A DNA stretch of 64,000 nucleotides from Winogradskyella litoriviva (GTDB taxonomy: Bacteria; Bacteroidota; Bacteroidia; Flavobacteriales; Flavobacteriaceae). The notes below the pieces were generated by a model. It worked only from the letters and a program-made list of their open reading frames with translations. It ran no database searches and was not told where the DNA came from. This document shows positions 38,307 through 51,811 of the stretch, one piece after another. The translations under genes were made by a program, and so were the position numbers. Numbering within the stretch: position 1 is the stretch's first letter; each line of letters opens with the position of its first letter. The DNA lies in assembly GCF_013249065.1 (NCBI RefSeq), contig NZ_JABRWQ010000006.1:248001-312000 (forward strand). Direction: 5' to 3'.

Positions 38307-39860
38307 TTACAAATCAAACTTAATGCCTTGTGCTAATGGTAATTCATCAGAATAGTTAACTGTATTTGTTTGTCTTCTCATATATACTTTCCAAGCATCA
38401 GAGCCAGACTCACGTCCACCACCAGTTTCTTTTTCGCCTCCAAATGCACCACCAATCTCAGCACCAGATGTTCCTATGTTTACATTAGCAATTCCACAAT
38501 CTGAACCTGCATAAGATAAGAACTTCTCAGCCTCTTTCATTTCATTGGTCATAATGGCTGAAGATAAGCCTTGTGCTACTCCATTTTGTTTTTCAATAGC
38601 ATTTTCAACATCACCAGAATATTTCATGAGATATAAAATAGGCGCAAAAGTTTCGTGTTGTACTATTTCAAAATGATTTTCTGCTTCAATAATTGCTGGT
38701 TTTACATAGCAACCAGATTCATAACCTTCGCCTTCTAACACTCCACCTTCAACCAAAACATTTCCGCCTTCTGCTTTTGCTTTTTCAATAGCTGATAAAT
38801 AAGTATTTACAGCATCTTTGTCAATTAATGGACCTATATGATTTTTTTCATCTAAAGGATTTCCTATTGTTAATTGACCATAAGCACCAACAATAGCATC
38901 ACGTACTTTATCGTAAACTGATTCGTGAATAATTAGTCTTCTTGTAGAAGTACAACGTTGTCCACATGTTCCAACAGCACCAAATACAGCACCAGGAACT
39001 ACAACTTTTAAATCTGCAGTTGGCGTGATAATAATAGCATTGTTTCCGCCTAATTCTAATAAAGATTTACCAAAACGTTGCGCAACTGTTGTCCCAACAA
39101 TACGACCCATTCTAGTTGAACCTGTAGCAGATACAAGCGGAATTCTAGTATCTGTAGTCATCATTTCACCAACTTTATAATCACCATTAATGATACAAGA
39201 AATCCCTTCTGGCAAGTTATTTTCTTTTAAAATGCCTGCAATAATGTTTTGACAAGCAATAGAACATAAAGGTGCTTTTTCTGAAGCTTTCCACACGCAG
39301 ACATCACCACAAATCCAAGCTAGAGCTGTATTCCAAGCCCAAACTGCAACCGGAAAGTTAAAAGCCGAAATAATACCAACAACACCTATTGGATGCCATT
39401 GTTCTCTCATTACGTGACCTGGTCTTTCCGAGGGAATGGTTTGCCCATTTAATTGCCTAGATAACCCAACAGCAAAATCACAGATGTCAATCATTTCTTG
39501 TACTTCTCCGTAACCTTCTTGCAGAGATTTACCCATTTCGTAAGAAACGAGTTTCCCTAAAGGTTCTTTTAAATTTCTTAATTTATTACCAAACTGGCGT
39601 ACAATTTCTCCACGTTGTGGTGCTGGCACATCTCTCCATGATTTGAATGCCTTTGTTGCCGCATCCATAACCTTGTCGTAATCTGCTCTAGTAGTTGATA
39701 CAACCTTCCCAATTAATTGGCCATCAACAGGAGAAAAACTTTCAATAATCTCTCCATTAGAAAAATTATTAGATCCTGTGGATGTACCTTCGTTAACTTC
39801 TTTAACACCTAACTGTTTTAAAGCCTCTTTTATTCCGAAATCGGTAGCAATTGCCTCCAT
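38307..39860 (-). CDS. Aldehyde dehydrogenase, ALDH7 (alpha-aminoadipic semialdehyde dehydrogenase) type
   Basis: A 517-residue NAD-dependent cytosolic enzyme. The whole sequence follows the ALDH7/antiquitin pattern: FSPVDGQLIGKV, the cofactor segment PVAVWAWNTALAWICGDVCV with VWKASEKAPL, catalytic Glu in LLELGGNNA and catalytic Cys303 in TCGQRCTSTRR. ALDH7 enzymes oxidise alpha-aminoadipic semialdehyde in lysine breakdown and can act on other aldehydes. No other lysine catabolism gene is next to it, so the pathway is inferred from family only. Confidence 0.93.
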   Translation of the reverse strand: MEAIATDFGIKEALKQLGVKEVNEGTSTGSNNFSNGEIIESFSPVDGQLIGKVVSTTRADYDKVMDAATKAFKSWRDVPAPQRGEIVRQFGNKLRNLKEPLGKLVSYEMGKSLQEGYGEVQEMIDICDFAVGLSRQLNGQTIPSERPGHVMREQWHPIGVVGIISAFNFPVAVWAWNTALAWICGDVCVWKASEKAPLCSIACQNIIAGILKENNLPEGISCIINGDYKVGEMMTTDTRIPLVSATGSTRMGRIVGTTVAQRFGKSLLELGGNNAIIITPTADLKVVVPGAVFGAVGTCGQRCTSTRRLIIHESVYDKVRDAIVGAYGQLTIGNPLDEKNHIGPLIDKDAVNTYLSAIEKAKAEGGNVLVEGGVLEGEGYESGCYVKPAIIEAENHFEIVQHETFAPILYLMKYSGDVENAIEKQNGVAQGLSSAIMTNEMKEAEKFLSYAGSDCGIANVNIGTSGAEIGGAFGGEKETGGGRESGSDAWKVYMRRQTNTVNYSDELPLAQGIKFDL

Positions 39861-40176: not shown

Positions 40177-40377
40177 ATGACTAGATTATTTTGTCGTTCT
40201 CCACTACGATTATTCTTCGAAAAAAAATTTTCGCAATACACAACCTATGCTATAAACGAAGCTATCCTTATAGCTATAGATATCCTCATTCCCCTTAAAA
40301 CTAATAATAACAACTCACTTAAAGTTGTTAAACCCTTGGTGAAATTACTGAAATCGATAACTCCATCAGCTAATTAA
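40177..40377 (+). pseudogene. Decayed DUF6090 copy (N-terminal remnant)
   Basis: A 66-codon frame starting MTRLFCRSPLRLFFEKKFSQ aligns without gaps to the first 46 residues of the six DUF6090 proteins downstream. Compared with the copy at 45231, I count 22 of 46 identical residues, including KFS, YAI, the E of the GE pair, and the membrane pattern IL..I.IL with LI and NN. Key residues are lost (GE becomes NE, VIG becomes AID, NNWN becomes NNNN) and the C-terminal domain is replaced by about 20 unrelated residues. It therefore looks like a remnant of a former array member, not a functional gene; a divergent short protein is the alternative. Confidence 0.6.
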
Positions 40378-40411
40378 ATTTTTCAAATAAACTGATTAAA
40401 TCAACAAAACC

Positions 40412-40747
40412 ATGAAAAACAAAAAACCAAACTGGACCAAAGCGGAATTACAAATTTATATTATGCTACTCTGTGCTAATGCAGATAAAACAGAAACCGA
40501 AGAAGAGTTAGACATGATTCAAAGCAAAACATCAAAAAAAACCTTTCTTAAAATGCATAAGAAATTCCATAAGCATTCTGAAAAAAAGCGATTAGACAAA
40601 ATTGAAAAGGTAATTAATAACCACGATTACAGCCAGATGGAACTTGCAGCTTTTAGAAGAGAAATGTATAAGATATTCTTTTCGGATTGCAGTTTTAGTA
40701 TGATGGAAGAACGTTTAGACATGACCTTGGATAATATACTTTACTAA
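40412..40747 (+). CDS. Small helical protein, TerB-like, coupled to the DUF6090 array
   Basis: A 111-residue soluble all-helical protein. The segment IYIMLLCANADKTETEEELD followed by MIQSKTSKKTF resembles the start of TerB/DjlA-like domains, in which an acidic helix turn binds metal in tellurite-resistance proteins. The rest is highly charged (KKFHKHSEKKRLDKIEKV, SFSMMEERLDM). The last base of its stop is the first base of the next ATG (TAATG), so it is translated together with the first DUF6090 protein. The TerB-like relation is tentative and rests on pattern only. Confidence 0.65.
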   Translation: MKNKKPNWTKAELQIYIMLLCANADKTETEEELDMIQSKTSKKTFLKMHKKFHKHSEKKRLDKIEKVINNHDYSQMELAAFRREMYKIFFSDCSFSMMEERLDMTLDNILY

Positions 40748-41502
40748 TGATTAAATTTTTTAGAAAAATAAGATACAACCTGTTAGAAAAAGGCAAAACT
40801 AGTAAGTACTTTAAATACGCCATTGGCGAAATTTTCCTTGTGGTGATTGGTATTCTCATTGCTCTTCAAATTAATAATTGGAATCAAAAACGTCTTCAAA
40901 AACTCACATTAAGCAATTACTACGAACGCATGCACGAAGAGTTAGAGAGTAGTCGTAACGAATTAGACAATTTAATTTTTGGCATTGATAGTTTAGTAAT
41001 ACTAAATACAAAAACGCTTGAAATATTAAATTCTAACAACAAAGATTCTTTACCAACACTGCAAAAAACCTTAGGTGCATTAGGTACAGCTTGGGGCAAT
41101 AACTTTAATTATCCAATTGTCCAAGAGTTTATGAATGAAGGCTATTTAACTAAAGTAAATAATAGCAAAATTAAAGACGAGTTGCAAGCCTTTAGTTTTC
41201 AATTAAACTGGTTTAAGACTCTTGATAAAGGAATAGGCGATCAATATTCATTGACCATAGAGCCTTTTATAAATAAACATCTTAATTACTCACAAATTGC
41301 TCTAGATAGGTATAAAAATACCCTCGTATCTGGAGGACCTGAAACAGATTTTGAATGGCTATTTAATAATTTAGAAGCATGGAATATCATAACCCTTAAG
41401 TTAGAGTTACTTGTAACCCAAAAGGAAGGTTTAAAAGAATTTAAATCCATGAGAGAGCGCCTAACCAATTTATTAAGTTCAGAGCTAAACTTGAAATTAT
41501 GA
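40747..41502 (+). CDS. DUF6090 family membrane protein, copy 1
   Basis: A 251-residue protein with the DUF6090 architecture. A basic N-terminal segment (MIKFFRKIRYNLLEKGKTSK) leads to one membrane helix (GEIFLVVIGILIALQINNWN, about residues 27-46) and a mostly helical extracytoplasmic or cytosolic domain (residues 50-251) unlike those of the other copies. The start overlaps the stop of the TerB-like gene and the end overlaps the next copy by 4 bases (ATGA). Function is unknown. Orientation of the C-terminal part across the membrane is not determined by the sequence; the positive N-terminus favours an outside C-terminus. Confidence 0.85.
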   Translation: MIKFFRKIRYNLLEKGKTSKYFKYAIGEIFLVVIGILIALQINNWNQKRLQKLTLSNYYERMHEELESSRNELDNLIFGIDSLVILNTKTLEILNSNNKDSLPTLQKTLGALGTAWGNNFNYPIVQEFMNEGYLTKVNNSKIKDELQAFSFQLNWFKTLDKGIGDQYSLTIEPFINKHLNYSQIALDRYKNTLVSGGPETDFEWLFNNLEAWNIITLKLELLVTQKEGLKEFKSMRERLTNLLSSELNLKL

Positions 41503-42281
41503 TAAAATTCTTTAGAAAAATTAGACAAAATTTACTCTCAGAAGGTAAGACTGGGAAGTACTTTAAATACGCCATTGGCGAAATTATCCTAGTCGTAATA
41601 GGAATTTTAATTGCACTTCAAATCAATAATTGGAACGAAAACAGAAAGAATAAGCAATATGAACAAAACTATCTGCAAAGAATTCTATCTGATTTAAACA
41701 AAGACCAAGCAGAGCTTGAGATGCATTTTAATACAGACACTCTAAAACTAGATGCATTTACACAGATAATACATATACAAAAGACTAATTCAATTAAATC
41801 TAATCAACAAGCTTTTTTAGCGGCTTTAAACAGCGTTAAAAGTACCAATTGGTTTGAAGGGAATGACGTGGTATTCAATGAAATGAAATTTTCTGGTAAG
41901 CTAGCGCTAATCGCTTCAGAGGATATAAGAGATAGTATACAAAACTATTATAAGCAAGTAGAAGAAGTTATAAAACAAGAAAATAGTTTCATTACTGCAC
42001 AAGTAAATGCGTATCATAAGGTTTATGAATATATGGACTATGCCTTTATAATTGAGGCTTCTAGGATACCTAGATGGAATTCTAACACTAATGATGTCAC
42101 TTATGAAGACATAATTAACTTTTATGATAACTTAAATGAAGTTCAAAAGAATGAAAATTATAAGGATTTAACATTAATAAAAGATTACATTTTGCGTAGT
42201 AACAAGGTTAGAGTTACCCTTGACGAAAAAGGTAAAGCAACAATTAAACTCATAAAAGATTACTTAGAAAAGAAGAAATAA
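41499..42281 (+). CDS. DUF6090 family membrane protein, copy 2
   Basis: A 260-residue paralog. The N-terminal block (MIKFFRKIRQNLLSEGKTGK, then YAIGEIILVVIGILIALQIN) is nearly identical to the other copies, while residues 55-260 differ, with a long helical start (NKQYEQNYLQRILSDLNKDQ) and a charged end (KATIKLIKDYLEKKK). It overlaps copy 1 by four bases and is followed by copy 3 after 25 bases. The family has no assigned function. Tight packing suggests an operon covering at least copies 1-3 and the TerB-like gene. Confidence 0.85.
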   Translation: MIKFFRKIRQNLLSEGKTGKYFKYAIGEIILVVIGILIALQINNWNENRKNKQYEQNYLQRILSDLNKDQAELEMHFNTDTLKLDAFTQIIHIQKTNSIKSNQQAFLAALNSVKSTNWFEGNDVVFNEMKFSGKLALIASEDIRDSIQNYYKQVEEVIKQENSFITAQVNAYHKVYEYMDYAFIIEASRIPRWNSNTNDVTYEDIINFYDNLNEVQKNENYKDLTLIKDYILRSNKVRVTLDEKGKATIKLIKDYLEKKK

Positions 42282-42306
42282 CAGCATAAAAATTAAAATT
42301 TAAGCA

Positions 42307-43053
42307 ATGATTAAGTTTTTTAGACACATTAGAAAAAAGCTACTCTCTGAAAACAAAATAGGCAAATACCTTAAATATGCCATTGGTGAGATTGTGCTTG
42401 TTGTTGTAGGGATTTTAATTGCCCTACAACTAAACAATCTCAATGATGAACGGAAAACTGAAAATTTAAGGCAAGTATATTATAAACAATTACTACAAGA
42501 TTTTGAGAACGACAAAGCATATATAAAAGAGCATTCTTCAAAAATAGATTCTAATATGGTAAAATTTAGAGCTTTTAAAGACAACTATAATCAGCCAAAC
42601 TTACCAATAATTGAAATAGTTTCTGCAACTGGAAATTTAGATTGGCAACTTTATAATGTTCAATTCAAAACTAATACGGTAAATACGTTACAGAATACTG
42701 GTGACATCAAATTAATACCACCAACCATTAGGGAACAAGTAATCCGTTTAGATAAATATAAAGAAGAAACAGAAGAGGCTTCTGAATACAATAATGGTGA
42801 AGCTGGTAAAGCGGGTGCAACGGCAGCTAATAGATATGGGAGTCCAGAATTTGCCTATAAAAACATACAAAATCAACCCAAACTGCGGGAACGGGTATTT
42901 GAAGAAAAAAACTTAATAGAGCTTCTTATTAACTTCGAAAGGTGCCAACATATGAAGGCTAAATCGGAACAAGGAAGCCTTATAAGATTTAAGAAAATTC
43001 TATCTGATATGGAAGAAATTGAAATTCTTATTAATAAGGAATTAAAAAAATAA
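42307..43053 (+). CDS. DUF6090 family membrane protein, copy 3
   Basis: A 248-residue paralog that forms a close pair with copy 4: the same length, no gaps, and shared segments such as NNLNDERKTENLRQVYYKQL and TGDIKLIPP. The N-terminal block and membrane helix follow the family pattern, with LNNLND replacing the usual INNWNE. The last 60-70 bases are almost identical to those of copy 4 (two differences), while the middle has diverged strongly. A structured palindromic element separates the two copies. Confidence 0.85.
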   Translation: MIKFFRHIRKKLLSENKIGKYLKYAIGEIVLVVVGILIALQLNNLNDERKTENLRQVYYKQLLQDFENDKAYIKEHSSKIDSNMVKFRAFKDNYNQPNLPIIEIVSATGNLDWQLYNVQFKTNTVNTLQNTGDIKLIPPTIREQVIRLDKYKEETEEASEYNNGEAGKAGATAANRYGSPEFAYKNIQNQPKLRERVFEEKNLIELLINFERCQHMKAKSEQGSLIRFKKILSDMEEIEILINKELKK

Positions 43054-43065
43054 CGAAAGCAAAAT

Positions 43066-43185
43066 AACGTGTATAATTCATTGTCCGGTTCGTGTGTATT
43101 GGGAAAATCCTACGGATTTTCCTCTGGTTCGTTTTCTTTTATTAAATTAGACCTAACCAACGTATCTAGCCATACACAACACGTT
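43066..43185. repeat. Structured palindromic element between DUF6090 copies 3 and 4
   Basis: AACGTGTATAAT at 43066-43077 and ATACACAACACGTT at 43172-43185 form imperfect terminal inverted repeats. A central perfect hairpin GGAAAATCC-TAC-GGATTTTCC lies at 43102-43122. The layout resembles the palindromic AACGT/ACGTT intergenic elements of flavobacterial genomes, or an attC-like folded site, and has no coding capacity. A small non-autonomous mobile element is another reading. Confidence 0.5.
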
Positions 43186-43213
43186 GTGCTTCATTTAAAC
43201 AAACCGCTATTCA

Positions 43214-43960
43214 ATGATAAAATTCTTTAGAAAAATTCGCCAAAACTTACTTTCAGAAGGTAAAACTGGAAAGTATTTTAAATATGCAGTCGGAGAAATT
43301 GTGTTAGTTGTGATTGGAATTTTAATTGCCCTTCAACTTAACAACCTCAATGATGAACGGAAAACTGAAAATTTAAGACAAGTTTATTATAAACAATTAT
43401 TAAGGGATTTTGAAAAAGACAAAAACTATATAAAAGAGGCTTCATTATCAATTGATTCTAATATGGTAAAATATAAAACCTATAAAGAAACCTTTAATCA
43501 ACCAAACCTTCCTACAATTCAAATAATTAATAATATTAGTAATTTAAATTGGTTCTTTAAAAATGTTCAATTCAAATCTAACACAATTTCAACTTTAGAA
43601 AACACTGGAGATATTAAACTAATACCACCTATTATTAGAGAAAAACTAATCAGTTTAGAAAAATATAAAGAAGAAACAGAAAATGTTTCTAAATACAATA
43701 ATGATAGAGCATCAAAAGCAGAATTTAATGCAAGTCAAATATATGGCAGTGTAGATTTTATATTTAAAAATATTAAAAACCAACCTAAACTATTAGAATG
43801 GGTATTTGAAAAAAATCGTCAAATAGAACTTCTTGTAGCATTTGAGTCCAGTCAAAATAACAAAGTAGATTCGGAAAAAGGAAGTCTTAAAAGATTTAAG
43901 AAAATTCTATCTGATATTGAAGAAATTGAAATTCTTATTAATAAGGAATTGAAAAAATAA
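43214..43960 (+). CDS. DUF6090 family membrane protein, copy 4
   Basis: A 248-residue paralog of copy 3. The N-terminal 20 residues (MIKFFRKIRQNLLSEGKTGK) match copy 2 rather than copy 3, while the segment after the membrane helix (NNLNDERKTENLRQVYYKQL) matches copy 3. This mosaic pattern suggests gene conversion within the array. The central part (about 85-200) has diverged from copy 3 at many positions without insertions or deletions. The ten bases before ATG (CGCTATTCA and context) are shared with copy 5. Function unknown. Confidence 0.85.
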   Translation: MIKFFRKIRQNLLSEGKTGKYFKYAVGEIVLVVIGILIALQLNNLNDERKTENLRQVYYKQLLRDFEKDKNYIKEASLSIDSNMVKYKTYKETFNQPNLPTIQIINNISNLNWFFKNVQFKSNTISTLENTGDIKLIPPIIREKLISLEKYKEETENVSKYNNDRASKAEFNASQIYGSVDFIFKNIKNQPKLLEWVFEKNRQIELLVAFESSQNNKVDSEKGSLKRFKKILSDIEEIEILINKELKK

Positions 43961-44000
43961 CGTAAACACAACATACTTTATTATTAAAAATCGCTATTCA

Positions 44001-45059
44001 ATGATAAAATTTTTTAGACGGATTAGACAAAATTTACTTTCCGAGAAACAAACAAGCAAATATTTTAAGTATGCCATTGGCGAAATTGTACTCGTAGTCA
44101 TTGGTATTTTAATTGCATTGCAAATTAATAACTGGAATGAAAAACGTAAAAACGAAAATAAGATAACAATAGTTTTAAAAGAGATACAAAAAGATTTAGA
44201 AGAAGATATTGTTAAATCTAAAGCGTTGTTTACTTACTATAACAAAAGAGACTCGATAATACAATTGGCTTTAGACAACAAATTAACACGAGAAAATTAT
44301 TTAAGTGCTAATAATTATGAATTCATATATGTTGCTATGAACGCTTTTCACCTTAAAATTCATGACAATGGTTATAAAAAGTTAACCGATAATATAGATA
44401 ATATACCAGAGAAGTATCAAGAATTAATTTCACCTCTAAATGAAATTTACATCTACAATAAGTACGAAATTGATAAATTCGACATCAGGATAGATAAAGT
44501 TACCGATCGTTTAATAGATAAGCTTGCAGATTCAAAGCCTTGGTATTACAGTCTTAACAAAAATATCAGCGATGATGCAATACACTTTTTTTTAAATGAT
44601 TCGTTATATAAAAATGACCTAGACATTTATAGAAACGCATCTGATAATTTAGGTAGGCATATCTCTAATTTTAATCAAAACGCAAGTAACGTTTATAAAA
44701 CTATTGCAGAACTAACAGGTTACTCAAAAACACTACCAGATTTTATACCTCATCATTTAATAGAACCAACACCACAAGATTTAGAGGCCATTATAGGCAA
44801 TTACAAAATGGTAAAATTCACAACGCTTACAGGTGAAGTCAGCCCGCTTGATGAACCTTGTACAATAATAGCAGGTAAACACAGCTTAGAGCTAACATTA
44901 GTAAACAGTAATAATACTATTTTTCTCTATTACAAAAGTAATTCTGAGTTGTATGATGAAGAAGCAATATCAACACTAGTAAAGAATGATAAAAACCAAG
45001 TTGTAAAAATCATATCAAAATTGGATGATGGAGAAGCTGAACTAATAAAAATAGAATAG
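44001..45059 (+). CDS. DUF6090 family membrane protein, copy 5, with extra C-terminal domain
   Basis: A 352-residue paralog, about 100 residues longer than the rest. The standard N-terminal block (MIKFFRRIRQNLLSEKQTSK) and membrane helix are followed by the usual helical region (to about 250). An added beta-rich C-terminal domain of about 90 residues (LEAIIGNYKMVKFTTLTGEV, LTLVNSNNTIFLYYKSNSE) resembles lipocalin- or hydrolase-tail-like small beta domains. This is the only member of the array with such a fusion. It is followed by the 39-residue microprotein gene. Confidence 0.83.
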   Translation: MIKFFRRIRQNLLSEKQTSKYFKYAIGEIVLVVIGILIALQINNWNEKRKNENKITIVLKEIQKDLEEDIVKSKALFTYYNKRDSIIQLALDNKLTRENYLSANNYEFIYVAMNAFHLKIHDNGYKKLTDNIDNIPEKYQELISPLNEIYIYNKYEIDKFDIRIDKVTDRLIDKLADSKPWYYSLNKNISDDAIHFFLNDSLYKNDLDIYRNASDNLGRHISNFNQNASNVYKTIAELTGYSKTLPDFIPHHLIEPTPQDLEAIIGNYKMVKFTTLTGEVSPLDEPCTIIAGKHSLELTLVNSNNTIFLYYKSNSELYDEEAISTLVKNDKNQVVKIISKLDDGEAELIKIE

Positions 45060-45118
45060 TATCTTTCTTTACGCATCTAAAACCGTAATTATTTTTTAAA
45101 ACACTAATTAGCCCAAAA

Positions 45119-45238
45119 ATGAACGGAATGAACATTGTAATGGTGATAACCATAATACTTTTCGCAAGATTAGGCATACACTTGTTCCAACTCTATAAAA
45201 AAGCTCAACAAGAAAAAAAAGATAAACAGAATGATTAA
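45119..45238 (+). CDS. 39-residue membrane microprotein within the DUF6090 array
   Basis: ATG 45119 opens a frame of 39 codons ending in TAA at 45236-45238. The product begins MNGMNIVMVITIILFARLGI, one hydrophobic helix, and continues HLFQLYKKAQQEKKDKQND, a basic, hydrophilic tail. Its stop overlaps the ATG of DUF6090 copy 6 by 8 bases, which suggests translational coupling and a real gene. It is far too short for usual gene finders. It could be a leader that controls copy 6 or a partner of the DUF6090 membrane helices. Confidence 0.55.
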   Translation: MNGMNIVMVITIILFARLGIHLFQLYKKAQQEKKDKQND

Positions 45239-45992
45239 ATTCTTTAGAAAAATTAGACAAAAATTACTCTCAGAAAATAAGTTTAGTAAATATTTACTTT
45301 ATGCCATTGGAGAAATTATCCTCGTAGTTATTGGTATTCTTATTGCGCTTCAAATTAATAATTGGAATGCTCAGCAAAAAGAGAAAGAAGCTTTAATGAA
45401 AACCCTTTCAATTATAAAAAATAATATTGAAGATGATATTTTAATGCTTGATTCTTTAAAATCAAAACGAGAAAAATTAATACCACTTTATAAAAAGGAG
45501 CAACTCACTTTTTTCAACAATACCTACGATTTGGAAACTTCTATGAATGCCATATATGTTTTTGATGTATTTAATTTTAAAGCAAACCAAAGTGGTTTCA
45601 ATACATTAGAGCAATCGCCTTATCTGGCATTAATAAATGGCAGTAACCTGCATAAGTTATTACTAGTGCGCAAATCTGCCATAGAATATCTATATATAAC
45701 AGAAAATGAAACTAATACAGGAGTAGATAATTTAGAAACGCAGTTAGAACACACGTTTGATATGAAAATGGGATACACCATTTTTATGAGTGCTAAAGAG
45801 CAGCAAGACGCTAATATCACTATTACAGATGTTGATGCTTTTGTAAAAGAAGTGCATAATTCAGTGCTTTATAGAAATGCTATAACAAAAGCATCTATTA
45901 GAGACAAAACTATTATTCCTCAATACGATGCTTTAATTCAGCTTAGTAAAGATGCTATAACTGAGATTAATAAAGTTACCGAGAGTCCATAG
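45231..45992 (+). CDS. DUF6090 family membrane protein, copy 6
   Basis: A 253-residue paralog with the family N-terminus (MIKFFRKIRQKLLSENKFSK) and membrane helix (GEIILVVIGILIALQINNWN). The C-terminal domain (residues 50-253) is again different in sequence but helical and charged (KTLSIIKNNIEDDILMLDSL, VHNSVLYRNAITKASIRDK). Among the six, its N-terminus is the best match to the decayed copy at 40177. It is the last array member; a REP-like hairpin and the alpha-2-macroglobulin gene follow. Confidence 0.85.
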   Translation: MIKFFRKIRQKLLSENKFSKYLLYAIGEIILVVIGILIALQINNWNAQQKEKEALMKTLSIIKNNIEDDILMLDSLKSKREKLIPLYKKEQLTFFNNTYDLETSMNAIYVFDVFNFKANQSGFNTLEQSPYLALINGSNLHKLLLVRKSAIEYLYITENETNTGVDNLETQLEHTFDMKMGYTIFMSAKEQQDANITITDVDAFVKEVHNSVLYRNAITKASIRDKTIIPQYDALIQLSKDAITEINKVTESP

Positions 45993-46228: not shown

Positions 46229-49200
46229 ATGAGCATCAAAAAGCACCTCATCCTACTTCTAATTCTAATTCTAACTTTGATTTTTTCTTGTAAAAAAAAG
46301 CCTGTAGAAACCGATAATATTTTTAAGTATAGAGATTATATCAGTTATACCACTTCTGGAATTGTTTCTGCATCAGAACCTATAAAAATTAGCTTGGCCA
46401 ATGAGGTTGAAGGATGGGAAGCAGAACAAAACATTGATGATGCTATTATAAAAACACAACCTCACATTCAAGGCACATTAAAAGCACTAGATAAACACAC
46501 TTTATTATTTACTCCAGATGAGGCGTTAGAATCAGCAACAGAATATGCCGTTACCGTAAAACTAGGAGAACTCTATAAATCCATACCAAAAGAGTTTGAA
46601 GATTACACTTTTCAGTTTAAAACTATTACGCCGAGCTTCAGCATTGTGACTAACAACTTGCAATCGTACAGCAAAGAGTGGCAGTACGTTTTAGGTCAAT
46701 TACGCTCGTCGGATGTAATTACTTTAGAAGATGCCAAAAAATTGGTATCAGCAAAACAGAACAAAAAAGACCTCAACTTAGTTTGGTTAGAAATGCCAGA
46801 ACCGTCAAAATATTTTGAATTTAGAATAGACAGCATTAAGCGCGAGATTGAAGACAGTAAAATTGATATCGCTTGGGATGGAAAAGCCATTAAAGCCGAA
46901 AACAAAGGAGACAACTTCATTAACATCCCAGGAAAAAACAACTTTAGCATTATAGAAACACAAGTTATTCAAAATCCAGAACAATATTTATCACTCAACT
47001 TTTCCGACCCATTAAAAAAACAACAAAACTTTGCTGGTTTGGTCACTATACAAAATGTAAAAAACCCAAAATATATTGTTGATGGCAATGTTTTAAAAGT
47101 TTATCCAGACACTAAATTAGTTGGAGATATAAAAGTCGATGTATTTACAGGCATTACAAATACAGACGGTTTTAAACTTAAAAAAGCCTTCTCACAAACC
47201 TTAACTTTTGAAGAATTAAAACCACAAGTAAGACTAATTAGCAATGGCTCTATATTACCAAATTCTAAAGATTTAAAATTCAATTTCGAAGCTGTAAACC
47301 TCAGCAAAGTCGATGTGCGAATCATCAAGATATTTGAAGATAATGTTCTTCAGTTTCTTCAAGAAAATAATATGAATAGCAATTACGAACACGCTATAAA
47401 ACAAGTCGGTCGTCGTATTGCTAAAGAAACGATTACTTTAATAGGAAATGAAAATTTAAATACTGGCGAATGGAAAGCATACAGCATCGATTTATCAAAA
47501 TATTTACAGGCAGATCCTGGTGCAATTTATCGCGTTGAAGTCAGCTTTAAACAAGACTATTCCTTATACGATTGTTCTTCCAAATCAGAAACCACAGAGG
47601 TTGAAGAAGACGACTACTACGATGAGTATTACGAAGAAGATTTTTACGCTTCTGAAGACCTTTCAGAAGAGGAAGAAGAACTGAGAGAGGAACGTTATTG
47701 GGATAATTTAAGCTATAGATACAGAAACACTAATTACAGATATAGAGACAGAGATAATCCTTGTACAGAGTCGTACTTTAATTACGGAAATCGTGCTATA
47801 TCACTAAACTTAATTGGTTCTAATTTAGGAGTTATAGCTAAGCAAGGCAATGATTTTAAATACTTCTTTGCAGTCACCAATATACTTTCAACAGACCCAG
47901 AAACAAATGCAAACGTTACGCTTTATAATTATCAGCAACAAGAAATCGCAAAAGGCAACACCAATAACGATGGTATTGTAGAAATTGATGCTAAAAAACG
48001 AGCAGCTTTCGCCATAGTTTCTAAAGGAAAAAGTGTGAGCTATGTAAAATTACACGATGGAAATTCTTTATCACTAAGTAAATTTGATGTGTCTGGAAAC
48101 AGATTGCAACGTGGACTAAAAGGTTATATCTATGGTGAGCGTGGCGTTTGGCGACCAGGAGATAGTTTGTTTTTAACTTTTGTGTTAAACGACAAAGCAA
48201 ACAAACTACCAAAGCGTCATCCTGTAAAATTAGAAATCACAGATCCTGTTGGCAAGTTAGTGTATAGAAAAGTGTCCATAGATAACATTAATAATTTCTA
48301 TGATTTCACAGTACCAACCTCTACCGATTACAAAACCGGAAACTACAACGCTAAAGTTTCTGTTGGTGGAGCTAATTTTACAAAAAGCCTTAAAATTGAA
48401 ACGGTAAAACCTAACCGATTAAAAATTAAAATAGATTTTGAAGACGAAGTTTTAACCAACAACAAACCGCTACAAGGAGACTTAAATGTAGCTTGGTTAC
48501 ATGGCGCACCTGCTAAAAATTTAAAAGCTGAAATAAAAGCAAAATTCACAACGTCATACACCAGTTTTAAAGGTTATAAAAACTATGTGTTTAGCGACCC
48601 AACCAAAAACTTTAGCTCAGAAGAAACCAATGTATTTGAAGGCTATTTAGATGCTGAAGGAAATGCAAAAGTCGATTCAAAATTAAATATTGGCAAGAAT
48701 GCTCCAGGCATGTTAACAGCGCAATTTTTAGTAAGAGCATTTGAAAATGGCGGTGATTTTTCACTCGATGCCTTCACCATGCCTTATGCGCCTTATGAAA
48801 GTTTCGTTGGCTTACAATCACCAAAAGGCAACAACTATGGTTCATTCTTTACAGACGAAAATCAAACGTTTGATATTGCAACTGTTACTGCTGAAGGCAA
48901 ACCAATTCAACGTAATAAATTAGAAGTAAAAGTTTATAAAATTGAATGGCGTTGGTGGTGGAATTCCTCTTACGATAACTTATCGAGTTATGTGTCGAGC
49001 AATTACCACAGACCTGTACAGCAATACGAAATTGATACAGATGCCAATGGAAAAGCGAGCTTTAAACTCAATATTCCAGAAACGGAACGTGGACGTTATT
49101 TAATAAGAGTTGTAGATCCTGTGAGTGGTCATGCCACAGGACGCACAGCATACTTCTACAAAAACTGGTGGTCTAATTCGGCAGGTGGAGATAAAGAAGC

Positions 49201-51811
49201 CGCAAAAATGTTAGTCTTCTCAACAGATAAAGACAACTACAATGTTGGCGATACTGCTAAACTTACGTTTCCATCTGGAAGCGAAGGTAGAGCTCTAGTA
49301 AGTATAGAAAACGGCACCGAAGTGTTACAACACCAATGGGTAAAAACTAAGCCAGGTGAAACAACTATTGATATTCCTGTAACTGCTGAAATGGCGCCAA
49401 ATGTGTTTATCAACATTTCATTATTGCAACCACATGCCATTACCTCGAATGATTTACCGATTCGCTTGTTTGGCGTTATTCCCATGATGGTAGAAAATCC
49501 AGAAACGCGATTAGATCCACAAATAAATATGCCAGATGTCATTCAACCAGAACAATCTTATGAAATAAAAGTATCTGAAAAGAACAATAAAAGTATGACC
49601 TATACCATAGCGGTTGTGGAAGAAGGCTTGTTAGACTTAACACGATTTAAAACACCTAATGCTTGGGATAGTTTCTACGCTCGTGAAGCTTTAGGCGTAA
49701 AAACTTGGGATATTTTTGATGATGTTATCGGAGCGTATTCTGGTAGCATAGATCAAGTCTTCGCGATTGGTGGAGATGGAAGCGCAGCTGGTGGAAAAAA
49801 CAAAAAAGCGAATCGCTTTAAGCCTGTGGTTACGTATTTAGGTCCATTTTTATTAGATGCTGGAAAGACAAAAACACACCAATTAAAAATGCCAAATTAT
49901 GTTGGTGCTGTACGAACTATGGTTGTTGCAGGAAACAGTAATACCGAAGCTTATGGTAGCGCTGAGAAATCTGTAAAAGTTAAAAAGCCATTGATGGTTT
50001 TGGCGACGTTACCTCGTAAATTAAGTCCAGGTGAAAAGGTAACATTGCCTGTAACTGTTTTTGCCATGGAAAACAAAGTAAAAGATGTGACACTTTCTGT
50101 AAATGTAAGCGATGGCATTACCATAAAAGGCAATAAATCACAGTTACTAAAATTCAGTAAACCAGATGAAAAAATGGTGTATTTTGAATTGGATGTTTCC
50201 AAAGCAAAAGGCATTAATACCATTGAAGTTGTAGCCACAGGAAATGGAGAAAAATCGACTTATAAAGTAGAAATTGATGTAGAAAATCCTAATCCATTCA
50301 CCTCTCTTGTTATTGATAGTGAGTTACAAGCTAACGCTAAACAAACTGTTGAATTTTCAACCTTTGGAGTGCCTGGCACAAACTCGGCTATGGTGGAATT
50401 TTCAACCTTACCACCTATGGATTTCACAAAACGTTTAGCGTACTTAATTCGTTATCCTCACGGTTGTGTTGAGCAAACCACATCTGGAGTGTTTCCACAA
50501 TTATTCTTAGCAGATATATTCGATTTAACACCTCAAAAGAAAAAGCAAGTACAGCGTAATATAGAAAGTGGTATTAATCGCTTAGGACGTTTCCAGAATG
50601 CAAGTGGAGGATTAGGTTATTGGATGGGTGAAAATTCAGCAAATGATTGGGGAACAAGTTATGCTGGTCATTTTATGATTGAAGCCGAGAAAAAAGGATT
50701 CATTTTACCGCTAAGCTTTAAGAGCAATTGGATTGCGTACCAAAGACAAGCAGCACGTAATTGGAGACCAAGTTACAAATCGTATCATACTGATTTTGCT
50801 CAAGCATACAGACTGTACACTTTAGCTTTAGCTGGAGCACCAGATTTAGCAAGTATGAACCGATTAAGAGAATTCGATGAAATTTCTAACGATGCTAAAT
50901 GGAGATTAGCAGCAGCTTATGCTTTGGCCGGACAAAAAGAGGCAAGTGAGGCCATTTTAAAATCGGCAAATATAGATTTTGAAGACAACGAAGCTAATCA
51001 CTACACCTATGGCTCTGTATATAGAAATAGAGCAATGGCATTAGAAACAATGCTACTGATTAATCATTCTCAAAAAACAGATATAGCAAAGTCTATTGCA
51101 AAATCTTTAGCTAGCGATCGTTGGATGAGTACGCAAACAACAGCTTATAATTTATTAGCTCTTGGAAAAATGATTACGCAGAATGGTGGTAAAGAATTAA
51201 AACTCACTTATACCATAAACGGTAAAACTGAAACTATTGACACTAAAAATGGTATTGCGCAACGCAATGTTGCTATAAAAGAAGGTGAGAATCAAATTGC
51301 AATTACTAACTCAAAAGACAATTTGGTTTATGTACGAGTTTTAAATTCTGGCAAATTAAAATTAGGTGATGAAATTGCAGAGCAAAGAGGTTTATCAATT
51401 TCAACCGTATATAAAGATTTGCAAGGCAATAAAATCGATGTTACCAAATTACAACAAGGTCAGGATTTTGTAGCAACGGTAAGTATTTCAAACTTAACCA
51501 GAGATTATGTAAACGATGTTGCATTAACACAAATATTTCCTTCAGGTTGGGATATTGTAAACACACGATTTACCGATTTTGGAGATACCACAGTAAGTAA
51601 TGCGAGATATACAGATATTAGAGATGACCGTGTGAACTTCTATTTCGATATGAATAGACAAGGAAAATATGGGACTAAGACCTTTACAGTGATGTTAAAT
51701 GCGTCGTACTTAGGTACCTATTATTTACCAGGTGCTCAAGCTGAAGCCATGTACGATAATGATGATTATTTAGTACGAAATAAAGGCCAATGGGTGACTG
51801 TTGAGAAGTAA
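46229..51811 (+). CDS. Bacterial alpha-2-macroglobulin lipoprotein with thioester
   Basis: An 1860-residue periplasmic protease-trapping protein. The signal peptide ends in lipobox LIFSC (Cys21). Macroglobulin domains fill the first two thirds (the MG2-type segment GYIYGERGVWRPGDSLFLTF lies near residue 630). The thioester motif GCVEQ is intact, with Cys1413 and Gln1416, within the alpha-helical thioester domain (LAYLIRYPHGCVEQTTSGVF). An acidic and tyrosine-rich insertion occupies about residues 450-512. Such proteins are thought to trap invading proteases and partner with penicillin-binding protein 1C, encoded 4.2 kb downstream. The bait region cannot be located by eye. Confidence 0.95.
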   Translation: MSIKKHLILLLILILTLIFSCKKKPVETDNIFKYRDYISYTTSGIVSASEPIKISLANEVEGWEAEQNIDDAIIKTQPHIQGTLKALDKHTLLFTPDEALESATEYAVTVKLGELYKSIPKEFEDYTFQFKTITPSFSIVTNNLQSYSKEWQYVLGQLRSSDVITLEDAKKLVSAKQNKKDLNLVWLEMPEPSKYFEFRIDSIKREIEDSKIDIAWDGKAIKAENKGDNFINIPGKNNFSIIETQVIQNPEQYLSLNFSDPLKKQQNFAGLVTIQNVKNPKYIVDGNVLKVYPDTKLVGDIKVDVFTGITNTDGFKLKKAFSQTLTFEELKPQVRLISNGSILPNSKDLKFNFEAVNLSKVDVRIIKIFEDNVLQFLQENNMNSNYEHAIKQVGRRIAKETITLIGNENLNTGEWKAYSIDLSKYLQADPGAIYRVEVSFKQDYSLYDCSSKSETTEVEEDDYYDEYYEEDFYASEDLSEEEEELREERYWDNLSYRYRNTNYRYRDRDNPCTESYFNYGNRAISLNLIGSNLGVIAKQGNDFKYFFAVTNILSTDPETNANVTLYNYQQQEIAKGNTNNDGIVEIDAKKRAAFAIVSKGKSVSYVKLHDGNSLSLSKFDVSGNRLQRGLKGYIYGERGVWRPGDSLFLTFVLNDKANKLPKRHPVKLEITDPVGKLVYRKVSIDNINNFYDFTVPTSTDYKTGNYNAKVSVGGANFTKSLKIETVKPNRLKIKIDFEDEVLTNNKPLQGDLNVAWLHGAPAKNLKAEIKAKFTTSYTSFKGYKNYVFSDPTKNFSSEETNVFEGYLDAEGNAKVDSKLNIGKNAPGMLTAQFLVRAFENGGDFSLDAFTMPYAPYESFVGLQSPKGNNYGSFFTDENQTFDIATVTAEGKPIQRNKLEVKVYKIEWRWWWNSSYDNLSSYVSSNYHRPVQQYEIDTDANGKASFKLNIPETERGRYLIRVVDPVSGHATGRTAYFYKNWWSNSAGGDKEAAKMLVFSTDKDNYNVGDTAKLTFPSGSEGRALVSIENGTEVLQHQWVKTKPGETTIDIPVTAEMAPNVFINISLLQPHAITSNDLPIRLFGVIPMMVENPETRLDPQINMPDVIQPEQSYEIKVSEKNNKSMTYTIAVVEEGLLDLTRFKTPNAWDSFYAREALGVKTWDIFDDVIGAYSGSIDQVFAIGGDGSAAGGKNKKANRFKPVVTYLGPFLLDAGKTKTHQLKMPNYVGAVRTMVVAGNSNTEAYGSAEKSVKVKKPLMVLATLPRKLSPGEKVTLPVTVFAMENKVKDVTLSVNVSDGITIKGNKSQLLKFSKPDEKMVYFELDVSKAKGINTIEVVATGNGEKSTYKVEIDVENPNPFTSLVIDSELQANAKQTVEFSTFGVPGTNSAMVEFSTLPPMDFTKRLAYLIRYPHGCVEQTTSGVFPQLFLADIFDLTPQKKKQVQRNIESGINRLGRFQNASGGLGYWMGENSANDWGTSYAGHFMIEAEKKGFILPLSFKSNWIAYQRQAARNWRPSYKSYHTDFAQAYRLYTLALAGAPDLASMNRLREFDEISNDAKWRLAAAYALAGQKEASEAILKSANIDFEDNEANHYTYGSVYRNRAMALETMLLINHSQKTDIAKSIAKSLASDRWMSTQTTAYNLLALGKMITQNGGKELKLTYTINGKTETIDTKNGIAQRNVAIKEGENQIAITNSKDNLVYVRVLNSGKLKLGDEIAEQRGLSISTVYKDLQGNKIDVTKLQQGQDFVATVSISNLTRDYVNDVALTQIFPSGWDIVNTRFTDFGDTTVSNARYTDIRDDRVNFYFDMNRQGKYGTKTFTVMLNASYLGTYYLPGAQAEAMYDNDDYLVRNKGQWVTVEK

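Follow-up and report, generated by a model that had tools for sequence, protein, structure and literature searches.

Tandem arrays of immunity genes offer the closest described parallels to the locus considered here. The type VII secretion system (T7SS) immunity genes esaG of Staphylococcus and tipC of Streptococcus form strings of non-identical paralogues, in which recombination at conserved blocks changes the copy number and makes mosaics, and TipC is membrane-bound and outward-facing (PMC9484751). Passages of the same account describe the tsaI (DUF443) genes, tandem rows that code for membrane proteins with a single conserved block at the 5' end and a C-terminal part that varies, for which little evidence of recombination is given and the single block is reasoned to make recombination unlikely, and the staphylococcal lpl lipoprotein genes, which recombine between centrally placed conserved segments of ~130 nucleotides (nt) in neighbouring genes (PMC9484751). 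In polyimmunity loci immunity genes stand in rows, with a number and type of genes that vary even among strains; XerC/D recombinases lie next to several of these loci, and some of their immunity domains are fused to ankyrin or TPR repeats (PMC3482391). The type VI secretion system (T6SS) immunity arrays of Vibrio cholerae, which grow by horizontal transfer, join a constant 5' region to different 3' regions and come with effector genes (PMC5361080). We analysed a 64-kb stretch of the flavobacterium Winogradskyella litoriviva (contig NZ_JABRWQ010000006.1, positions 248,001 to 312,000; hereafter the window) in which six consecutive genes, D1 to D6, encode proteins of the DUF6090 family (PF19578), and propose that the C-terminal modules of such proteins have very probably moved between species, and from one anchor to another, through recombination in the segments that code for their constant N-terminal anchor.

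Set against these systems, the DUF6090 genes show the tandem non-identical paralogues, the conserved block, the variable copy number and the recombination breakpoints inside that block that mark esaG and tipC, and their products, like TipC, are predicted to be membrane-bound and to face outward. They differ from what the passages on esaG and tipC describe in having one 5' block, with the unit closed by the block of the next gene, in exchange between species, in a protein built of a single membrane helix and a helical bundle, and in having no known toxin partner. The architecture of tsaI recurs, but in DUF6090 a single 5' block appears to be enough for exchange; the recombining neighbours of lpl recur as well, with the block at the 5' end rather than in the centre. 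With polyimmunity loci DUF6090 shares the variable rows, the recombinases that adjoin its cassette rows (see below) and the ankyrin or TPR fusions of some members, whereas no toxin association was found and the passages of that account do not name the family (PMC3482391). The V. cholerae pattern of one 5' region and different 3' regions is likewise seen, as is growth by horizontal transfer, yet no effector was observed at DUF6090 arrays. We suggest that the array works like tandem immunity arrays, but do not file it as one of them because no toxin was recognised. The array comprises the following features, with lengths in amino acids (aa) and scores against the Pfam model, whose curated cut-off is 23.5 bits:

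40177..40377, + strand: relic of a seventh DUF6090 gene, a 66-aa open reading frame (ORF) over a decayed anchor
40412..40747, + strand: gene for a 111-aa protein, the first intact gene of the row, overlapping D1 by 1 base
40747..41502, + strand: D1, DUF6090, 251 aa, 24.4 bits
41499..42281, + strand: D2, DUF6090, 260 aa, overlapping D1 by 4 bases, 39.4 bits
42307..43053, + strand: D3, DUF6090, 248 aa, 26.4 bits
43214..43960, + strand: D4, DUF6090, 248 aa, a mosaic, 20.5 bits (under the cut-off)
44001..45059, + strand: D5, DUF6090, 352 aa, with an extra beta domain, 37.9 bits
44796..45056, + strand: C-terminal beta domain of D5, residues 266-352
45231..45992, + strand: D6, DUF6090, 253 aa, 40.9 bits
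40747..40884, + strand: anchor-coding segment of D1 (codons 1-46), predicted recombination joint
41499..41636, + strand: anchor-coding segment of D2 (codons 1-46)
42307..42444, + strand: anchor-coding segment of D3 (codons 1-46)
43214..43351, + strand: anchor-coding segment of D4 (codons 1-46)
44001..44138, + strand: anchor-coding segment of D5 (codons 1-46)
45231..45368, + strand: anchor-coding segment of D6 (codons 1-46), with the joint probably within about the first 30 nt

A first-pass annotation, made from the window's letters alone, had described six tandem DUF6090 genes with a nearly fixed first 46 residues that include NNWN, sharply different remainders and an extra beta domain in one of them. 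The six consecutive ORFs on the + strand bear this out, and alignment of their products yields 30 invariant columns, every one of them within residues 1-46. The description needs amending for D3 and D4, which carry NNLN in place of NNWN and are close to each other in the C-terminal part too (proportion of nonsynonymous differences, pN, 0.19; hhalign probability 100%); D4, the only one of the six below the Pfam cut-off, is a clear homologue of D3. A match of D6 to the Rad33 Pfam model (E 6.4e-6, over the cut-off) we judge to be a chance helical match. At E 1e-6 or better the genome as a whole yields 13 anchor copies, of which the window array accounts for six.

The two parts of these genes have different histories. 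In 19 pairs of a window gene and a relative matched by the C-terminal part, the proportion of synonymous differences (pS) in that part is 0.06-0.40, whereas codons 1-46 give 0.27-0.83 in all pairs but one, the exception with 0.00 being D4 against its relative in locus L038 (loci, genomes, contigs and public proteins bear our handles L, G, C and P); flanking genes give 0.29-0.65. D4 differs from its L044 relative at 38/120 positions in the first 120 nt and 20/594 in the C-terminal part, and from its L038 relative at 0/120 and 62/594, respectively, and so is a mosaic, with an anchor start identical to that of the L038 relative and a C-terminal part nearer to L044. With relatives picked by hand, the excess of anchor mismatches against a close C-terminal relative gives Fisher p values of 2e-18 for D4, 1e-13 for D5, 4e-10 for D3, 2e-4 for D1 and 7e-4 for D6; the drop at D2 is not significant (p 0.08).

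The same pattern is found in a wider ORF set, in which 326 matches reduce to 262 unique ORFs and 245 of at least 200 residues; four of the latter were out of register and were dropped, leaving 241 genes for the pair analysis. C-terminal DNA is at least 85% identical in 99 pairs, and in 40 of these the identity of the first 120 nt falls short of it by at least 10 points; the 40 cover 17 of 23 C-terminal families and 20 loci. As controls we took 113 pairs of neighbouring genes that share their start register and whose proteins are at least 75% identical: none of the 44 whose remainder is at least 85% identical drops by 10 points, and six of the other 69, with a less conserved remainder, do so, three of these involving the window's 1860-aa gene. 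Misregistered or indel-bearing anchors were considered as the cause of the drop and rejected, as gapped alignment returns the same 40/99 (and the same 8/99 in the opposite direction, discussed below). Conversely, 44 of the 241 anchors have a 93% match elsewhere over 111 nt, and 18 of these near-identical matches precede a different C-terminal family (12 distinct pairs, 8 of them within one locus). Homogenisation of anchors within the genome was also rejected, the anchor pS among the six window genes being 0.55-0.85.

The joints can be placed with some precision. Most of 23 profiled pairs have unrelated upstream DNA, a divergent anchor and high identity from about nt 120 to the stop codon; the joint of D6 is closer to its ATG, and in a few pairs the upstream DNA is shared. 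Single-changepoint fits to 48 pairs with a drop of at least 8 points and enough flank put the left breakpoint at nt 40-257, within the first 138 nt in 41 of them. On the right, 54 pairs have a further anchor gene within 120 nt on both sides, and in the 33 with different next families homology ends between -68 and +87 nt around the next ATG; it visibly enters the next anchor in L081/L104 and L067/L070, and for D4 and D3 fades past the stop codon. Since most breakpoints on the left fall in the anchor and homology runs out close to where the following gene begins, the exchanged unit very probably starts inside one anchor and extends about as far as the beginning of the next, with the anchors acting as direct repeats. 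Codon use in the anchor varies over 152 family representatives; therefore the anchor DNA does not seem to be conserved as a signal in itself, and the joint looks like a by-product of protein conservation. Separately, at the anchor start of the gene at 13947 in L070, ~33 extra GC-rich, partly palindromic nt interrupt the segment relative to L067.

The content of the array is in flux as well. Ten other genomes carry the 111-aa gene at the same site (L037-L046), and the full-length DUF6090 genes (at least 200 aa) downstream of it number none in L043, three in L037 and L046 and 13 in L038, such that one fixed chromosomal site holds anywhere from 0 to 13 full-length copies. Relics and truncated copies occur in array loci, and the number of copies across 60 genomes of the genus ranges from 0 (six genomes) to 52. 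These comparisons show that copies are gained, lost and left to decay at a fixed site. A second array site is found in L158, between an aldehyde dehydrogenase and a RidA-type gene of a kynurenine-pathway row that comprises amidohydrolase, short-chain and aldehyde dehydrogenase, RidA-type, FAD-monooxygenase and kynureninase genes; L154, L161 and L168 resemble it by gene sizes only.

Sequence turnover of this kind could be no more than the accumulation of copies that recombine through anchor homology and serve structural or envelope roles, with no part in conflict, and the selective regime agrees with such an ordinary paralogue family. The ratio of nonsynonymous to synonymous substitution rates (dN/dS) is 0.05-0.48 in the C-terminal parts of the 19 pairs and 0.07-0.18 in the anchors where defined. 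Computed separately as the earlier annotation had advised, both parts are thus under purifying selection, and positive selection on the C-terminal domain was rejected, as these whole-domain averages show no sign of it. The retained modules are under purifying selection, and the diversification that the annotation had proposed survives as a layout of constant anchor and varied domain in rows of differing size and content, in which modules appear to be exchanged by recombination rather than driven apart by positive selection. It had further held that one fold under purifying selection, in an array fixed across species, would indicate plain paralogues. AlphaFold2 models of D2 and D5, the two proteins modelled (mean predicted local distance difference test scores, pLDDT, 91.8 and 92.2), present the same order of helices: residues 2-14, a helix crossing the membrane (18-95 or 18-91), short ones, a further helix at 141-178 or 137-178 and finally a long one, after which D5 adds its beta domain. 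Judged by this order of helices, D2 and D5 are predicted to share one helical architecture. The rows, in contrast, differ between species, and the array is clearly not fixed. The relics and truncated copies and the occurrence of one array inside a catabolic gene row also speak for ordinary paralogues, but modules are often more alike between species than flanking genes are, their in-frame state and low dN/dS are more than idle turnover would give, and copy number spans 0 to 52 per genome; we consider this explanation rather unlikely.

A sensor array, in which the bundles would be ligand-binding domains like those of chemoreceptors or sensor kinases and the anchor would signal to a cytoplasmic partner, possibly the 111-aa protein, is in our estimate a little less likely again. 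In the models of D2 and D5 a single membrane helix stands at the N-terminus, and the chain closes with the bundle or the beta domain; neither a sensor-type second membrane helix in these models nor an output domain among Pfam families in the six proteins was found. Structural matches to the bundle are weak and mixed, and Foldseek returned nothing at E 0.001 or below for D2. For D5, 14 RhoGEF (DH/PH) matches below 0.001 had query template modelling (TM) scores of 0.12-0.18 and were set aside as an effect of helices followed by a barrel, and the beta domain itself resembles the C-terminal barrel of D-aminopeptidase and lipocalin-like barrels. In hhalign profile comparisons D3 and D4 form one family; single-linkage at E 1e-3 puts 223 of 245 C-terminal parts in one set, although these parts start at residue 51 and the end of the anchor may contribute. 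Some members of DUF6090 carry ankyrin repeats, TPR repeats or PF11954, which we take to be DUF3471. Proteins of ~380 aa ending in TPR repeats are seen at L003:8734-9879 (repeats below Pfam cut-offs), L160:3952-5097 and L167:8480-9622, and ankyrin repeats in the public DUF6090 proteins P0143, P0146 and P0147.

Based on these observations we propose that a short amphipathic helix and one membrane helix would constitute a constant anchor in the inner membrane, and that the membrane helix would run on into a helical bundle, most likely periplasmic, as the variable module. At the DNA level the constant part very probably acts as a repeated joint for swapping modules; in the protein it may hold every member at one location, possibly together with a common partner, and each module may bind a different ligand. 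These ligands would most likely be incoming antagonist proteins, such as toxins, bacteriocins or phage proteins. To the proposal as a whole, an exchangeable, polyimmunity-like repertoire of membrane-anchored, periplasm-facing binding proteins, we assign a probability of roughly 0.5; that its function is protective, of a periplasmic polyimmunity type, is a more tentative suggestion, standing somewhat against the odds.

Several observations weigh against this proposal. In 8 of the 99 pairs the anchor exceeds the C-terminal part in similarity by at least 5 points, and the pairs are not independent, displaying a pattern rather than a number of events. By profiles the modules of D5 and D6 are linked to none of D1-D4, and D1 and D2 are linked to D3/D4 only weakly (probability 13-21%, E ~1e-3); the topology derives from charges and models. 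The array inside the kynurenine-pathway row points to metabolism or chance. DUF6090 relatives were not found in phage, plasmid or viral collections, and carriage by phages or plasmids was rejected, with no match and with none of 173 stretches that fitted a pattern confirmed. PADLOC models of known anti-phage defence systems, run on seven proteins, gave only one weak partial match (Specificity_I, E 0.002, D4) and place the array in none of those systems, and Pfam recognised no toxin in 17 neighbouring proteins (7 + 10), a sample that includes the caspase-like neighbour of the L152 row and beyond which many other neighbours lie.

DUF6090 is named in no paper of the literature searched, and 108 of 199 sampled Flavobacteriaceae genomes have a match to it; the proposal would make of this domain a concrete system open to testing. 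One and the same anchor would both target the protein and serve as the joint by which outer modules are swapped between species, and a single conserved 5' block is suggested to suffice for the exchange of modules within a tandem array. Should the modules be protective, the arrays might record the antagonists met by marine Flavobacteriaceae.

Single DUF6090 genes also occur elsewhere, among small and mostly co-oriented ORFs that form long rows and are accompanied by attC-like repeats of ~125-165 nt; the four repeats tested fold with z-scores of -1.8 to -4.8. On G028:C1 (L149-L151, L173 and L174; stretches at 2-22, 33-53 and 54-114 kb) one DUF6090 gene is present in three 99% identical copies, and the row ends at a divergent 372-aa tyrosine recombinase near 104 kb, in which the integron-specific region is lacking. 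In the W. litoriviva genome itself (L175:10649-15448, L176, L004 and L001) a 371-aa recombinase lies on C44, with cassettes running to a contig end, and further cassette rows lie on contigs C11 and C8. Both recombinases match the integron integrase model below its cut-off and leave model positions ~178-238 unmatched; no paper of the literature searched treats integrons together with Winogradskyella. These rows, with their repeats and identical copies, invite the explanation that DUF6090 genes are the cargo of a mobile integron-like collection and the tandem array a deposit of captured cassettes. A cassette-row copy at L004:14172, whose C-terminal DNA is 93% identical to the tandem-array genes L041:7770 and L045:8646, favours it; the attC-like repeat, however, had no match at E 1e-3 in the window or L037-L056 in a search with a single query from L149, which diverged repeats could escape, and the window array has its joints within anchor-coding sequence, leaving this explanation decidedly improbable. 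The proposed binding repertoire might be widened to a periplasmic immunity repertoire throughout Flavobacteriaceae, with the anchor as DNA joint, residing both in tandem arrays and in undescribed integron-like cassettes run by a tyrosine recombinase without the integron-specific region; so broad a version we regard as doubtful. If it holds, up to 52 copies in one genome would make a very large repertoire of this kind.

The 111-aa gene that opens the intact row had been annotated as coding for a TerB-like partner coupled to the array. Neither Pfam nor NCBIfam gives a family over cut-off for it, the TerB Pfam model PF05099 does not match it, and its position is absent from the own-genome matches to that model at E up to 1. 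A profile comparison with true TerB is weak (hhalign probability 27% over 19 columns), and the protein is clearly related (99.7%) only to a second uncharacterised paralogue. UniRef names label some of its relatives TerB, and its best match to sequences of solved structures has an E of 0.07. The label is therefore not supported as given: the protein would be TerB-like distantly at best. Its conservation is firmer, with a dN/dS of 0.03-0.08 and orthologues (matches at E 1e-22 or better) of 44-95% identity in 19 other genomes of the 60 in the genus that were searched, own included.

The coupling itself is real but not obligatory. Over 10 kb on each side, or less at contig ends, 53 of 80 loci with the 111-aa gene in named genomes contain a DUF6090 gene, all drawn on the same strand, within three genes in 44 of the loci and immediately downstream in 25; our estimate of the background, from 631 anchor copies over 60 genomes of ~3.5 Mb each, comes to 0.06 per 20 kb. 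The 20 genomes with a 111-aa orthologue hold a median of 13.5 anchor copies (408 in total), and the 40 without one a median of 2 (223 in total; p 6e-7). At the same site, L155 and L163 have rows of five and seven DUF6090 genes without the 111-aa gene, which the L163 genome has elsewhere, and L043 keeps the 111-aa gene without a full-length DUF6090 gene. The 111-aa gene is truly linked to DUF6090 but optional, and dispensable for an array because the rows of L155 and L163 stand without it. The second paralogue (G000:C44:399113-399424; L027-L036) is present in most genomes of the genus searched and adjoins a gene of ~270-276 aa in several loci; in L027 its reading frame begins with what we take to be a sulfurtransferase-like part.

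Upstream of this gene, the 66-aa ORF at 40177-40377, first read as an embedded microprotein, is the relic of a seventh DUF6090 copy. It matches the anchor at E 1.8e-4, and at this very position L037 and L039 have full-length DUF6090 genes, to the beginning of which its DNA can be aligned before a loss of ~0.5 kb relative to them.

Two further genes border the array site:

38307..39860, - strand: 517-aa gene, presumably aldehyde dehydrogenase-like, left border
46229..51811, + strand: 1860-aa gene, presumably alpha-2-macroglobulin-like, right border

The left-border gene has a 93-96% identical neighbour in all ten loci L037-L046, and the right-border gene an 81-92% identical one in seven of the ten, not being seen in the stretches fetched for L038, L040 and L044. 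Away from this site, a caspase-like (Peptidase_C14) protein with a DUF1036 domain is encoded at L152:14954-16654, directly after a row of 12 DUF6090 genes.

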